Assembly (NCBI GenBank): GCA_017478965.1
Contig: JAFVCV010000026.1
Span: 55,876 to 119,875 of the forward strand
DNA from: Ruminococcus sp.
GTDB taxonomy: Bacteria; Bacillota; Clostridia; Oscillospirales; Ruminococcaceae
Length of the DNA: 64,000 nt
Reading direction: 5' to 3'
Position numbers and translations under genes: made by a program. Position 1 is the first letter of the stretch. Each line of letters begins with the position of its first letter. This document shows, piece by piece, positions 27,454 through 33,847 of the stretch. Below the pieces are notes generated by a model. That model worked only from the letters and a program-made list of their open reading frames with translations. It did not search any database and was not told the DNA's origin.

Positions 27454-28047
27454 ATGATACAGATCAATTTTTCAATAGATGATATTGATGAGTTTCAGAC
27501 CAGGGAGCTGCCAACCGGAGCTGTGAGAATAAAAACGCCCCGGACCACAGATGAGATGATGAAGAAAGCTTCCCCCATCGCAGTCTTATTGTGCTTTTTC
27601 ATGACAGCGGCAATGTTTATAAAGACAGTTTCTGCGAGGGAAGTAGTTTTTTCTCCCGTATCGCTGATCGCCGGTTTCCTTCTTGGTTTTTGTCTTATAT
27701 TTGTTCATGAGCTGCTTCACGCTGCTGTTTACCCGGAAGAAGCGATCGTAACGGTAGGGAAACTGAAAGGAAAGCTTACTTTTGTGGCCCTGGCCTCATA
27801 TCCTTTAAAAAGATCAAGGTTTATTATTATGTGTCTTGTTCCGTTTATTCTGGGACTTATCCCGCTGGCGGTCTTTATCATCAGTCCGGCAGAGTTCAGG
27901 GTATTGAACGGACTGATGTTTGGGGCAGCTTGTATTGGCATGGTGTCACCGTTTCCTGATGTGTATAATGTGATAACAGTACTTCGCAGTGCTGAGAAAA
28001 ATGATAAGATAATGTTTTATAAAGATGAAATGTACAAGGTAAGGTAG
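27454..28047 (+). CDS. DUF3267 membrane metalloprotease-like protein
   Basis: The 197-residue product has four predicted membrane helices, at about 43-60, 68-90, 125-147 and 152-170. A HELLH zinc-binding motif is near residue 90 (FVHELLHAAVYPEEA). This HExxH at a membrane face is the DUF3267 signature, seen in intramembrane site-2-like protease relatives, but activity is not shown for most members. The ribosome site before the ATG is weak. It is the third gene of the MarR unit. Substrate and role are unknown. Confidence 0.8.
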   Translation: MIQINFSIDDIDEFQTRELPTGAVRIKTPRTTDEMMKKASPIAVLLCFFMTAAMFIKTVSAREVVFSPVSLIAGFLLGFCLIFVHELLHAAVYPEEAIVTVGKLKGKLTFVALASYPLKRSRFIIMCLVPFILGLIPLAVFIISPAEFRVLNGLMFGAACIGMVSPFPDVYNVITVLRSAEKNDKIMFYKDEMYKVR

Positions 28048-29974: not shown

Positions 29975-30748
29975 TCATGCAGTCAGTAATGAGGACATTG
30001 GCTGAAATGATTCGCACTTGCCCTTGCGGTGCAGTCTTACCAGCGCAGCAGGCAGGCAGATAATAACTATTGCGATACCAACATACATCAGGTAGCTGTT
30101 AGCGAGCAGCTGCTTGGCAACAGGGACTGTCAGCACGGTCATGATGTTTGCTGAAATATGGAATGCCAGGCAGTAAACAATGTTCTTGGAGAACATATAT
30201 ATCAGGCTTATAACGATTCCCACAATAACAAGGTCTGCAAGACGGGCGGCCGTTCTGGGGAAGTGGATCCCTACCCAGGGCAGGCAGGAGATAAGGATAG
30301 CCAGCACCTTTTTCAAGCCGCTTTTGCCTGCGGCTATGAGAAGAATGGTCATTACACTCAGACGGAAGATGAGCTCTTCTGCAACGGGTGATATAAATAC
30401 AGTTGCTGCCATAGTGTATATTTCTTTGAATGTAGGAACAAATTCGTTGTTCTCGAAGGTCTGTCGGTTTGCAAGGAATACGTCAGCCAGCGACCAGCCA
30501 AGCCCCGCTATGATTATCAGTGCAAGGGTAAGAAGCTGGGGTTTTCTGAAACAGCTGCCGGTGTCGAGCTTCAGCAGCTTTTTGTCAGCAAGAACACAGA
30601 GCATTCCGCCCATCAGATAGCATATCGGTACAAAATAAGCTTCGAGCGATCTGTTGACCATGCCTATGATAACGTCTCCTACCATAGGCAGCATACCTAT
30701 GAGTATCATCAATATACCGTATCCCACGGCGCTTTTATAATTTTTCAT
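29975..30748 (-). CDS. CPBP-family intramembrane glutamic protease, copy 1
   Basis: The 257-residue product has about eight membrane helices and the CPBP/Abi motifs: EELIFR with Glu124, Glu125 and Arg129, His162 in the second motif, and HISAN with His197 and Asn201. This family includes CAAX-type proteases and bacteriocin self-immunity proteins. All expected catalytic residues are present. It lies 12 bases after copy 2 on the same strand. The pair diverges from a LytTR/GHKL two-component system. A role in signal-peptide processing or in self-protection is inferred from this context only. Confidence 0.9.
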   Translation of the reverse strand: MKNYKSAVGYGILMILIGMLPMVGDVIIGMVNRSLEAYFVPICYLMGGMLCVLADKKLLKLDTGSCFRKPQLLTLALIIIAGLGWSLADVFLANRQTFENNEFVPTFKEIYTMAATVFISPVAEELIFRLSVMTILLIAAGKSGLKKVLAILISCLPWVGIHFPRTAARLADLVIVGIVISLIYMFSKNIVYCLAFHISANIMTVLTVPVAKQLLANSYLMYVGIAIVIICLPAALVRLHRKGKCESFQPMSSLLTA

Positions 30749-30760
30749 AATATCTCTCCT

Positions 30761-31531
30761 TTACTGTATTACTGGAACTGCTCTTATTTCAGTCTTTTTG
30801 TCTTTTCTGAAAAGCTTTGCCATTTCATAAGTGAACCCTGCGGTGATGATGACCGCTGCGATCATAGTTATCGCCAGCGGCAGAGGGCTGGTGTAAGATC
30901 TGCCTATGAGCATTACTACCGTTACGCAGATATTGTTTGCTGCGTGTTCAAATATGCACAGTTTGAGGCTGCCTGTCTTTTGGTAGACCATACTTGCTGC
31001 CAAACCTGTGAAGAAGACACGGGCAGAGGTGAGCGTACCATAGCAGTGAGGTATGGTCCAGAGGACAGCTGTCAGGACAGCTGTGATAATGCAGATCGCC
31101 TTCGTGTTTGAACCACGCTTTATAATGTGAGTCATAAGGCAGCGGCAGAGGACCTCCTCTGCAAACGGTGCAAAGAATACTGCGTCTATCTGTTTCATAA
31201 GGTCAAAAGAGATCTCCTCATCCGGGGCGTTGTGCAGCAAGAACATCATTGGCAGCAGCGCACTTATCGCTCCGAACAGCACATACCACACATATAGCTT
31301 TGCAGGTGCTTTGCTTTCTTTGGGTATCTCCACATCGCCCCACTTTCTGAAGGCCAGCAGCGTTAAGATCCCTCCCGCACCTAACAACACCATAGTAAGG
31401 TACCTAAATGTAAACTCGATATTTCCTTTCACCAAAAAATTCACCGCCATTCCTATCCCCAATGGCAGCACATACAACACCAGTGCTATCACCAGGTCTC
31501 TTATCGTCAGCATTGATCTTTTCATCTTCAT
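30761..31531 (-). CDS. CPBP-family intramembrane glutamic protease, copy 2
   Basis: The 256-residue product has the same layout as its neighbour: EEVLCR with Glu125, Glu126 and Arg130, His162 in TIPH, and HAANN with His196 and Asn200. Overall similarity to copy 1 outside the motifs is low by eye, so the two are not a recent duplication. GAAAGG precedes the first ATG; a second ATG at 31525 is possible. It is the first gene after a promoter at 31563-31591, just downstream of a 21-bp-period repeat array. It probably belongs to the regulon of the divergent LytTR regulator. Confidence 0.9.
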   Translation of the reverse strand: MKMKRSMLTIRDLVIALVLYVLPLGIGMAVNFLVKGNIEFTFRYLTMVLLGAGGILTLLAFRKWGDVEIPKESKAPAKLYVWYVLFGAISALLPMMFLLHNAPDEEISFDLMKQIDAVFFAPFAEEVLCRCLMTHIIKRGSNTKAICIITAVLTAVLWTIPHCYGTLTSARVFFTGLAASMVYQKTGSLKLCIFEHAANNICVTVVMLIGRSYTSPLPLAITMIAAVIITAGFTYEMAKLFRKDKKTEIRAVPVIQ

Positions 31532-31562
31532 CTATCCTTTCGTGTTTTTTTGCTGTGACTAT

Positions 31563-31591
31563 GTTATACCACTTTTCTTCACGACAATCAA
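31563..31591 (-). promoter_or_regulatory. Promoter for the CPBP pair
   Basis: On the minus strand: TTGATT (31591-31586), a 17-base spacer, TATAAC (31568-31563). The repeat array starts 6 bases upstream of the -35 box, the usual place for an activator of the LytTR class. Confidence 0.7.
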
Positions 31592-31596
31592 CGATC

Positions 31597-31651
31597 TAAC
31601 GGTGAACGGCATTTCAAAGCGGCTGAACGGTATTTTAGTTCGGTCAAGCGG
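31597..31651. repeat. Tandem 21-bp-period repeat array, candidate LytTR operator
   Basis: TGAACGG at 31603-31609 recurs at 31624-31630 and as CAAGCGG at 31645-31651, exactly 21 bases apart. A second set of CGG half-sites ends at 31602, 31622 and 31643. Direct repeats about two helical turns apart are the normal binding mode of LytTR regulators. Confidence 0.65.
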
Positions 31652-31684
31652 TCATTATCTCAAAATGAAATTTCTGCGTTTGAC

Positions 31685-31713
31685 TTTACATTATTTTAAA
31701 AACATGATATAAT
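31685..31713 (+). promoter_or_regulatory. Promoter for the LytTR-GHKL operon
   Basis: TTTACA (31685-31690), a 17-base spacer ending in TGA, TATAAT (31708-31713). The repeat array ends 33 bases upstream. Confidence 0.75.
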
Positions 31714-31734
31714 ATCAAACGGAGGAGATCACTG

Positions 31735-32436
31735 ATGAAAATAGCTATATGCGATGATGAAAAGCATATGCGAAGCCTTTTGCGGCAGAAGCTCGCTGCC
31801 CGTTCGGGGGAAATAAAGATGACTGAATTTTCCGGCGGCAGGGAACTTATCAGCTCAAAAGAGAGTTTCGATATGATCTTTTTAGATATAGAGATGCCCG
31901 ATCTCGACGGTATGGAAACTGCCGCAAGGCTGAGAGAGAAAGGCGTTTCGTCCCTGATGATATTTCTGACCAGCCATGAGGAGTTTATGCGGGACGCTTT
32001 CAAGGTCAAGGCATTTCGCTTTCTGTCAAAGCCTGTGGACGAAAAGGAACTTGATGAAGCCATGAGTGAGGCTGAAAAGGAGCTTTCTGCCCAGAACAAG
32101 CTGATAATAGAGCAGCGGGGCAGGATATATGAGGTGAGGTCGGCAGATGTGCTTTACATCGAAGCCTATGGCGACGGTACCTACATCTATGACAATGCAG
32201 GGAATGTCTACGACAGCAAGAAACAGCTCAAGCAATGGGAAGAAGAGCTTTCGGGACAGCCGTTTTTCAAGATACATAAATCCTATATCGTATCGCTGGC
32301 GCAGGTCGCAAGGATAGAGGGCGCCGAGGTCACGCTGATAGGTCAGAAAAAACCTTTGACCGTCAGCCGCAGGAACCTTTCTGCTTTCAAGGAAGCCTAT
32401 CTTGACCATGTTAGAAAAAATGCCCGCATAGTTTAG
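31735..32436 (+). CDS. LytTR-family response regulator (AgrA/ComE-like)
   Basis: The 233-residue product has a receiver domain at 1-115 with acidic DD at 7-8, phosphoacceptor Asp51 (FLDIEMP) and the conserved lysine in LSKPV. A LytTR DNA-binding domain follows at about 135-230 (VRSADVLYIEAYGDGTYIY; FFKIHKSYIVSLAQVARI; LTVSRRNLSAFKEAY). LytTR regulators bind short direct repeats and often control peptide signalling, bacteriocins or competence. The ATG follows GGAGG. It lies 13 bases before the GHKL kinase. The repeat array at 31597-31651 is the obvious candidate target. Confidence 0.95.
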   Translation: MKIAICDDEKHMRSLLRQKLAARSGEIKMTEFSGGRELISSKESFDMIFLDIEMPDLDGMETAARLREKGVSSLMIFLTSHEEFMRDAFKVKAFRFLSKPVDEKELDEAMSEAEKELSAQNKLIIEQRGRIYEVRSADVLYIEAYGDGTYIYDNAGNVYDSKKQLKQWEEELSGQPFFKIHKSYIVSLAQVARIEGAEVTLIGQKKPLTVSRRNLSAFKEAYLDHVRKNARIV

Positions 32437-32449
32437 GAGGCGGCAGGTA

Positions 32450-33739
32450 TTGAAATTGATAATTAGCTATATATTTGATTTTGTAAAGCTGTTCGTTATC
32501 GAAACCGGCATATTCGGCTACAGACCCAAAAAGGACTGCAAAGCACCTCTGGCAGCGGCGGCATTTACAGCAGCATACATACTGGCGTTCCGACTGACAA
32601 AGAATAACATAGGGGCGCAGGCTTTGGTGCATTTACTGTACCTTATGACAAATGTGATAACTGTTTCCCTGGCTTTAGATGGCAGGAAAAAGCTGCTAGT
32701 CAGCTTTGCTGTTTACTGTTGTATCTTGTTGTTCGATGATATTTTTATGACAGCAGCGGCGGATATCCTGGGGATAACATACCATGAAGCGGATATGGAC
32801 ACAGTTATACATTACACGACCATGTTCATTTCTTTGGTCTTCTATACGCTCGTCACCTTTATCATCGTATATATGAGAAAAAGAAAAGGTGAAAATAAGA
32901 TAGATCTGAGAGAAAGCAACAGCCTGTATTTTTTCATTCTTTCTCTTTCTGTAATAGTAATGTATGTTTTAGGAGTCTCCGGAAAAATCGGACCTTTTGT
33001 CAGTGACGGCATTTCCCCGTTCATGCTGCTTGCAGCGGCGATAATAATTCTTATTGCTGTTATCATACATACCAACGCTTTAAAAAAGTATTACGAATCC
33101 AGCAATCATGTGAACGAAAAGATCAAGGAATCCCAGAAGGCCTACTATGAGGGTATGCTGGCAAGAGAAAACGATACCAGAAAATTCCGCCACGACATAA
33201 ACAATCATGTGCTGTGCATGAAGACCCTGCTGAACGAGGGGAAATATGATGAAGTGGGAGAGTATCTTTCAAGCATCGAAAACAAGACCGAAAAACTGAC
33301 TCCTACTGTTTCTACAGGCAATGACCTGGTAAATGCCATAACAAGCGACCTGATGAACCGCTATAACAATGTCAGACTGGACTGGCAGGGGCATCTTCCA
33401 GCCGAAATGAATATTTCGGATATGGACATATGCGTTATCTTCTCGAATATACTCGACAATGCTTTCACCGCCGCAGCAAAATGCGAAACGGGAAATGTCG
33501 GTGTACGCATTGCCGCCGCAGGCGCAAGCCTTATGATAACGGTGGTAAACGGCATAAATGAGCCTATCCAGCTAAGGGCCAGCAAACTTGTTACCTCAAA
33601 GCCCAATAAGCGCAACCACGGTTTCGGCGTCATGAACGTAAAAGAATGTGCCGAGAAAAATAGTGGCAAGGCTGAATTTTCCTTTGATGAAAAGCATTTT
33701 ACCGCCGAGGTCATACTGCCGAATGCGATCGCCCTGTGA
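32450..33739 (+). CDS. GHKL-family sensor histidine kinase (AgrC/ComD-like)
   Basis: The 429-residue product has an N-terminal membrane domain of about six helices (to residue 205), a coiled-coil dimerisation part, and a GHKL ATPase domain. The phosphoacceptor region FRHDINNHVLCMKTLL is near residues 245-260. The N-box NILDNAFTAA is near 328 and GFGVMNVKE near 395. This is the AgrC/ComD/BlpH pattern, in which the membrane part reads an extracellular peptide. The start is a TTG at 32450, nine bases after an AGGAGG. No AgrD, ComC or double-glycine leader peptide ORF was found nearby, so the ligand is unknown. A terminator follows at 33749-33795. Confidence 0.93.
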   Translation: MKLIISYIFDFVKLFVIETGIFGYRPKKDCKAPLAAAAFTAAYILAFRLTKNNIGAQALVHLLYLMTNVITVSLALDGRKKLLVSFAVYCCILLFDDIFMTAAADILGITYHEADMDTVIHYTTMFISLVFYTLVTFIIVYMRKRKGENKIDLRESNSLYFFILSLSVIVMYVLGVSGKIGPFVSDGISPFMLLAAAIIILIAVIIHTNALKKYYESSNHVNEKIKESQKAYYEGMLARENDTRKFRHDINNHVLCMKTLLNEGKYDEVGEYLSSIENKTEKLTPTVSTGNDLVNAITSDLMNRYNNVRLDWQGHLPAEMNISDMDICVIFSNILDNAFTAAAKCETGNVGVRIAAAGASLMITVVNGINEPIQLRASKLVTSKPNKRNHGFGVMNVKECAEKNSGKAEFSFDEKHFTAEVILPNAIAL

Positions 33740-33748
33740 CATTAAAAT

Positions 33749-33795
33749 AACAGCTTACCGTTTTGCACTTTGCTGGAACGGCGGGCTGTTTTCAT
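33749..33795 (+). terminator. Terminator after the GHKL kinase
   Basis: AACAGC...CCGTT and AACGG...GCTGTT pair around a GCACTTTGC loop, followed by TTCATTCCTTTTT. Confidence 0.75.
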
Positions 33796-33819
33796 TCCTT
33801 TTTCAGGACTTTTATATTA

Positions 33820-33847
33820 TTGACTAATGTACAATAATTTGTACTAT
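33820..33847 (+). promoter_or_regulatory. Orphan promoter before a structured intergenic RNA
   Basis: TTGACT (33820-33825), a 16-base spacer, TACTAT (33842-33847). No ORF follows on this strand. Confidence 0.5.

Follow-up and report, generated by a model that had tools for sequence, protein, structure and literature searches.

The 64,000-nucleotide window analysed here (C39:55876-119875 of a 2.69-Mb Ruminococcus sp. draft genome, 92.8% complete) carries a four-gene unit in which a LytTR response regulator and an adjoining GHKL membrane kinase face two divergently transcribed CPBP membrane proteases, CP1 and CP2. The unit is conserved between species, a conserved box and promoter precede the protease operon, and no peptide or export gene was found with it. 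We give about an even chance to the reading that it is a stripped-down bacteriocin-control circuit of the BlpRH/PlnBCD kind, an inducible immunity-only module directed against peptides made elsewhere.

All four open reading frames (ORFs) are intact, and all four proteins score above the curated Pfam cut-offs. On the forward strand lie the regulator (31735..32436), with a receiver domain (Response_reg, 73.8 bits) and a LytTR DNA-binding domain (68.7 bits), and the kinase (32450..33739; TTG start; HATPase_c_5 of the GHKL type, 69.6 bits), which has about six hydrophobic N-terminal segments in its orthologues and matches the AgrC model weakly (31 bits, cut-off 500). A receiver-LytTR regulator thus adjoins a GHKL membrane kinase, as in bacteriocin-type two-component systems. 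On the reverse strand, CP1 (30761..31531; PF02517, 52.6 bits) and CP2 (29975..30748; PF02517, 49.2 bits), 12 nt apart, are the first and second genes of the divergent operon. Both combine the PF02517 match with the EExxxR, H and HxxxN motifs of CPBPs, and no motif residue varies among the orthologues compared (E123 E124 R128, H160 and H194 N198 in four CP1 sequences; E124 E125 R129, H162 and H197 N201 in three CP2 sequences). An Rce1-like fold is predicted for the two proteases from the Pfam match; a CP1 profile gave no match to solved structure chains at E 0.1. A PADLOC scan for anti-phage defence matched none of the four unit proteins. The first-pass annotation, made from the letters of the window, had described a LytTR/GHKL pair facing two intact divergent CPBP proteases, and the ORFs, Pfam scores and invariant motifs bear this out.

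The closest named relatives at the locus are Ruminococcus metagenome-assembled genomes (MAGs). Kinase orthologues of 67-70% identity were present in three named MAGs, at L069 (the G002 locus, L021), L070 (the G014 locus, L022) and L071. The four-gene neighbourhood singled out by the annotation was found again, between different flanking genes, in three further Ruminococcus MAGs, one of which has a reduced CP2: at L071, CP1 is intact and CP2 is cut to 66 codons. DNA alignment placed the limits of conservation between species at the CP2 stop and near the kinase stop (29975 to 33720-33768). Because the conserved stretch ends at these points and the genes outside it differ, we treat the four genes as a unit. 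A fourth relative, G019, retains the CP1 end only: its 3-kb contig carries CP1, the first part of CP2 and the box described below; a different gene stands at the regulator's expected place, and no kinase orthologue was found in this 76% complete genome, the best match having 28% identity.

Judged on sequence alone, the target promoter carries a direct-repeat box with a 12-bp spacer upstream of its -35 element. The predicted regulator-binding box, CCGTTCAGC-N12-CCGTTCACC (31601..31630, minus strand), consists of two 9-bp repeats and lies just upstream of the -35, 32 nt from the -10, of a predicted CP1-CP2 promoter (31563..31591, minus strand; -35 TTGATT at 31586-31591, 17-nt spacer, -10 TATAAC at 31563-31568). 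This layout resembles that of PlnC sites, reported as two 9-bp repeats with a 12-bp spacer just upstream of the -35 (PMC2714321). Box and promoter, the latter in the form TTGATW-N17-TATAAC, are conserved before CP1 in five of five relatives with the same 32 nt from box to -10; the strict box pattern matches in four of the five, and G019 has one mismatch. When the five were aligned, most repeat, -35 and -10 positions were identical in all, and the spacers varied. For G014 the distance was first computed as 53, from an overlapping upstream pair; the promoter-adjoining pair lies 21 nt closer. A third repeat is present in G000 and G014; in the window it gives an overlapping further match, one period upstream, with two mismatches to the pattern (31622..31651, minus strand; match C39:87497-87526). 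The -10 lies 34-39 nt from the CP1 start in the four relatives measured, too close for a leader peptide to fit between them.

In its looser form the pattern has a single perfect match in the 2.69-Mb genome, the CP1 site; with up to two mismatches allowed, the loose form gave 46 matches in the same genome against 13 for a reversed control and was set aside as not specific. The stricter pattern was run on five genomes, where the best match was always the CP1 site and the reversed control gave 0; its remaining matches all had two mismatches (two each in G000, G002 and G019). The conserved box and promoter thus predict that CP1-CP2 are very probably controlled by the regulator, the link that the first-pass annotation had needed for its proposal.

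A peptide gene was sought across the conserved block, where five frames outside the four genes match at least two of three relatives. Three are antisense to CP1 or the regulator, one of 17 codons sits on the CP1 promoter, and the fifth (33648-33827, plus strand) crosses the kinase end in another reading frame. The last 34 codons of this fifth frame (33723-33827) contain a Gly-Gly and a Shine-Dalgarno-like string; we rejected it as a peptide gene, the sequence after the kinase stop not being conserved in the three relatives. Between 24900 and 38600 there are 28 small ORFs outside genes, two with a Shine-Dalgarno-like string and one, the same frame, with Gly-Gly. The absence of a peptide gene beside the kinase, noted earlier, therefore holds for conserved ORFs, with the non-conserved Gly-Gly frame as a caveat. 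No AgrD-like ORF was noticed among the small ORFs, to which no AgrD model was applied, and neither a C39 peptidase nor AgrB gave a match at E 0.001 anywhere in the draft genome. Because the locus has no peptide gene and no C39-type exporter, we do not class the unit as a complete bacteriocin system.

The box is shared with part of the wider kinase/regulator family. Among 56 loci the first three are orthologues, and the other 53 (L072-L124) were scanned with the box of the window clade. At up to two mismatches, 11 box sites were found in seven of the 12 nearest outside loci and none in the 41 farther loci, and 20 shuffles of the nearest or the farther set gave no site. Four of the 11 lie 10-15 nt past a kinase stop, six lie 75-100 nt before a regulator start, and one lies further on in L078. 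That the box tracks the regulator subfamily supports, and does not prove, direct binding; it also links other regulators of the subfamily to their targets. In a search across the family, 74 of 396 genomes matched the box, as did 16 in the reversed control (counted from the listing), so that part of the 74 matches is chance. Among 14 of these stretches picked by eye, five (L211, L213, L215, L218 and L220, the last being the L081 locus again) lie beside this kinase/regulator family; the other nine do not, three of them having a more distant regulator at 1.6 to 5 kb.

In a 32-kinase tree, the window clade (100/100) stands beside L072, and together they group with L073, L074, L075 and L077 (99/95). 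Bacteriocin or RiPP (ribosomally synthesized and post-translationally modified peptide) genes near related circuits are common, not universal. L076 has a C39 exporter and a match to the class IIb bacteriocin model TIGR03949 (34 bits, cut-off 21.5); L215 has a double-glycine peptide and a C39-type exporter, called by similarity to the L072 exporter; L074 has a double-glycine frame and an ABC fragment; L073 and L077 have radical-SAM genes, L077 also having a Cys-rich peptide below its family's cut-off. Other neighbours are an M48/M56 peptidase (L075), a VWA/TSP3 protein (L081) and a divergent operon with an AMP-ligase and a carrier protein (L082). Because several relatives lie in such clusters, we read the unit as a bacteriocin-control circuit without the peptide and its export. 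Downstream of the sister kinase in R. flavefaciens XPD3002 (L072:10243-14550) are several double-glycine peptides and a C39 exporter, a candidate ligand source; four of these peptides were scanned and none exceeded any model cut-off. A C39 label given to L070 in the kinase tree proved false: its ABC exporter, one of two exporters scanned, has no C39 domain, and the row corresponds to a CPBP.

LytTR genes and CPBP genes also occur together beyond this unit. Across 29 genomes from the genus, a CPBP match lies within 2 kb of 7 of the 80 LytTR matches of response-regulator length, where 0.78 would be expected, compared with 1 of 29 short LytTR matches (0.30 expected); the proximity count used 151 of the 192 tallied CPBP matches. 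All seven pairs fall in four related genomes (G000, G002, G014 and G019), are not independent and reflect few independent events. The genome's own other LytTR gene of this length, at L032:5285-8473 (C7), lies with a GHKL kinase and faces a divergent CPBP gene, from which the pair is separated by a 21-bp-period repeat of different sequence, CTGTCGTAAAC/CTGTCGTGAAA. Its kinase belongs to a separate clade (100/100), in which CPBP directly follows the kinase in G002, G014 and G027. The type B loci L150, L151 and L154 showed no clear tandem box before CPBP.

GHKL-type kinases are known for peptide sensing. In the mechanism that we favour, the kinase would sense something at the membrane, most likely a neighbour's bacteriocin-type peptide or its pheromone, and, as its family suggests, would phosphorylate the LytTR regulator. 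The regulator would bind the 9-12-9 bp box and turn on a single operon, CP1-CP2, whose products, by analogy with characterised CPBPs, may have a protective role, such as cleaving or removing the peptide or its receptor. The cell would respond without producing: several related kinases have peptide, exporter and maturation genes beside them, and none of these was found here. This reading is favoured by conservation of the unit between species with other flanks, by the position of the sister and near kinases in peptide clusters, and by the second LytTR/GHKL pair of the same genome, which faces a CPBP from a separate kinase clade. R. albus is reportedly affected by peptides of R. flavefaciens FD-1 (PMC13289728), so such peptides occur in the habitat. 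Of the two roles that the first-pass annotation had offered for the proteases, protection against a foreign peptide fits better, given the bacteriocin-linked relatives and the use of CPBPs as outputs of an immunity type; the idea that the proteases free a membrane-derived signal fits less well, with slight support from the conserved tail of CP2 considered below.

Several observations weigh against an immunity-only module. Ligand, binding and protection are predictions. Five of the 12 nearest loci (L072-L075 and L077) have no box at two mismatches; directly after the kinase, L075 has one at three mismatches and L077 one at four, and L072 and L073 have none even at four. The sister L072, whose position has 92/90 support, below the program's starred level, shows just a different repeat with a 21-bp period, 29 nt past its kinase. 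For the C7 pair that faces a CPBP, and for its kin, no clear common box was seen. Several related loci have outputs that do not look like immunity, such as secreted proteins and the AMP-ligase/carrier operon. In a draft that is 92.8% complete, an exporter could be missed. SilX, a CPBP under the LytTR regulator SilA, is reported to serve signal production and not immunity (PMC9298176).

In an unlikely alternative the unit signals to itself: one or both CPBPs would make the ligand by cutting a membrane protein, perhaps the CP2 tail, the kinase would read the peptide, and the regulator would then raise CPBP production, closing an agr-like loop that has no peptide gene of its own. Maturation of kinase ligands is the role of the CPBP MroQ and probably of SilX (PMC10482373, PMC9298176), and CP1-CP2 are the predicted target of the regulator. 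At the C-terminus of CP2 (residues 243-257), 12 of 15 positions are invariant in three full proteins from three species; eight other windows of 243 equal this conservation, all at or next to an active-site motif. Non-synonymous differences per site are 0.03-0.09 in the 15 codons of the tail and 0.14-0.23 in residues 1-228, rates that are suggestive over too few codons. At L071:3521-3721 (minus strand), the 66-codon CP2 frame, with a ribosome-binding site read by eye, has retained only the first membrane segment and the conserved tail, its protease core being lost; beside an intact CP1, it may resemble a protease-propeptide pair of the AgrB-AgrD type. However, the sequences are few, and the L071 tail is more diverged, at 0.15-0.21 non-synonymous differences per site, so that this may be a plain decaying gene. 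As a separate peptide, the tail gave only weak matches besides the window in 396 family genomes (best E 0.007), and cytoplasmic tails have no known exporter, the topology here, as elsewhere in the unit, being read by eye. The case for a hidden signal, built on the tail conservation and the L071 frame, is thin, and its specific form, in which the kinase would read a peptide cut by CP1 from the CP2 tail in a quorum-type loop without a separate pheromone gene, is quite improbable; if true, it would add a novel means of encoding a pheromone.

The fragment kept at L071 would suit a contact element, as expected if the CPBPs bound the kinase and set its activity whatever the ligand, proteolysis being secondary. 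Abx1 is reported to bind CovS in this manner, independently of its putative protease activity (PMC3578759), and CPBP genes adjoin kinases in two separate kinase clades. Retention of all catalytic motif residues in the CP1 and CP2 orthologues compared, L071 CP2 excepted, speaks against contact as the main function, and we consider it improbable. A further reading is a general envelope-stress switch, in which the kinase would read membrane damage or membrane-active compounds, the proteases would clear damaged membrane proteins, and the bacteriocin link would be one of ancestry only. Related circuits do precede other genes for membrane or surface proteins: a DUF3267 zincin (L078), the M48/M56 peptidase with its three-mismatch box (L075), a protein with four transmembrane segments (L211, L213) and secreted proteins. 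Yet the sister kinase sits in a cluster of double-glycine peptides with C39, and the kinase is of the peptide-sensing GHKL type, which leaves this switch improbable too. If the unit is indeed an immunity-only module, it provides a small conserved case in which the sensing and protective half of a bacteriocin system persists in a cell that lacks the weapon itself. Since just one target operon is predicted, the role of CPBPs for a peptide-sensing kinase could be tested with four genes and one promoter.

Further features were noted around the unit. A possible promoter for the regulator and kinase, TTTACA-N17-TATAAT (31685..31713, plus strand), was read by eye. One outer neighbour is a fused MFS/spermidine synthase-like gene, and those on the other side were read by eye as argF, argD, argB and argJ. 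In G002 only, a 143-codon frame without a Pfam match (L021:6188-6619, plus strand) lies between the box and the regulator, and the box stays beside CP1. At L078:7844-8992, perfect boxes precede the DUF3267 putative zincin and a 91-residue membrane protein; the DUF3267 gene of the window (27454-28047) has no such box nearby. At L211:4269-7527 and L213:3048-6461, with the same kinase/regulator family, two boxes precede the four-segment protein, of 110 residues, and the genes beyond resemble arginine biosynthesis, as beside the window unit, by chance or through a shared site.

Characterised CPBPs do three things: immunity (SkkI and BlpY; PMC10482373, PMC4517551), signal maturation (MroQ, probably SilX) and kinase contact (Abx1). 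An immunity-only unit would be closest to regulons of the BlpRH/PlnBCD type, with which it shares a LytTR regulator, a GHKL kinase, a 9-12-9 bp box just upstream of the -35 and CPBP genes among the targets. In S. gallolyticus, BlpR is reported to control a pair of CPBP proteases (PMC8545106), and in the pneumococcal BlpR regulon the CAAX protease SPV_0817 is a proposed member (PMC6560143); CPBPs are thus known or proposed targets in LytTR bacteriocin regulons. Unlike these regulons, the unit has no peptide, exporter or bacteriocin gene that we could find, and CP1-CP2 is the one target seen. The AgrBDCA system of S. aureus with MroQ, a CPBP acting in maturation of the kinase ligand, likewise joins a GHKL kinase, a LytTR regulator and a CPBP in one pathway (PMC10482373), whereas the unit has no AgrB match, no AgrD-like gene seen, a weak AgrC match and two CPBPs in a divergent operon under a box. 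The SilA/SilB system of S. anginosus has in SilX a CAAX protease reported to depend on a LytTR regulator with direct repeats, but also has a signal peptide, an exporter and bacteriocin genes, and SilX is described there as having no immunity role (PMC9298176). Abx1 and CovS of group B Streptococcus likewise link a CPBP to a sensor kinase (PMC3578759); Abx1 acts on the kinase by contact, whereas the kinase here is of another family and its link with the CPBPs is one of gene neighbourhood. Immunity-only, or cheater, pneumococci keep immunity without inhibitory activity, often through a frameshifted exporter gene, blpA, in an otherwise complete locus (PMC4517551), whereas here such genes are absent from a unit conserved between species. 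Among open-access titles and abstract starts we found no conserved peptide-free LytTR/GHKL-CPBP cassette; CPBPs in bacteriocin loci were present. The "new design" claimed in the first-pass annotation was therefore overstated, LytTR-controlled CPBPs being already in print (PMC8545106, PMC9298176, PMC6560143); what is unusual is the reduced, peptide-free and conserved form.

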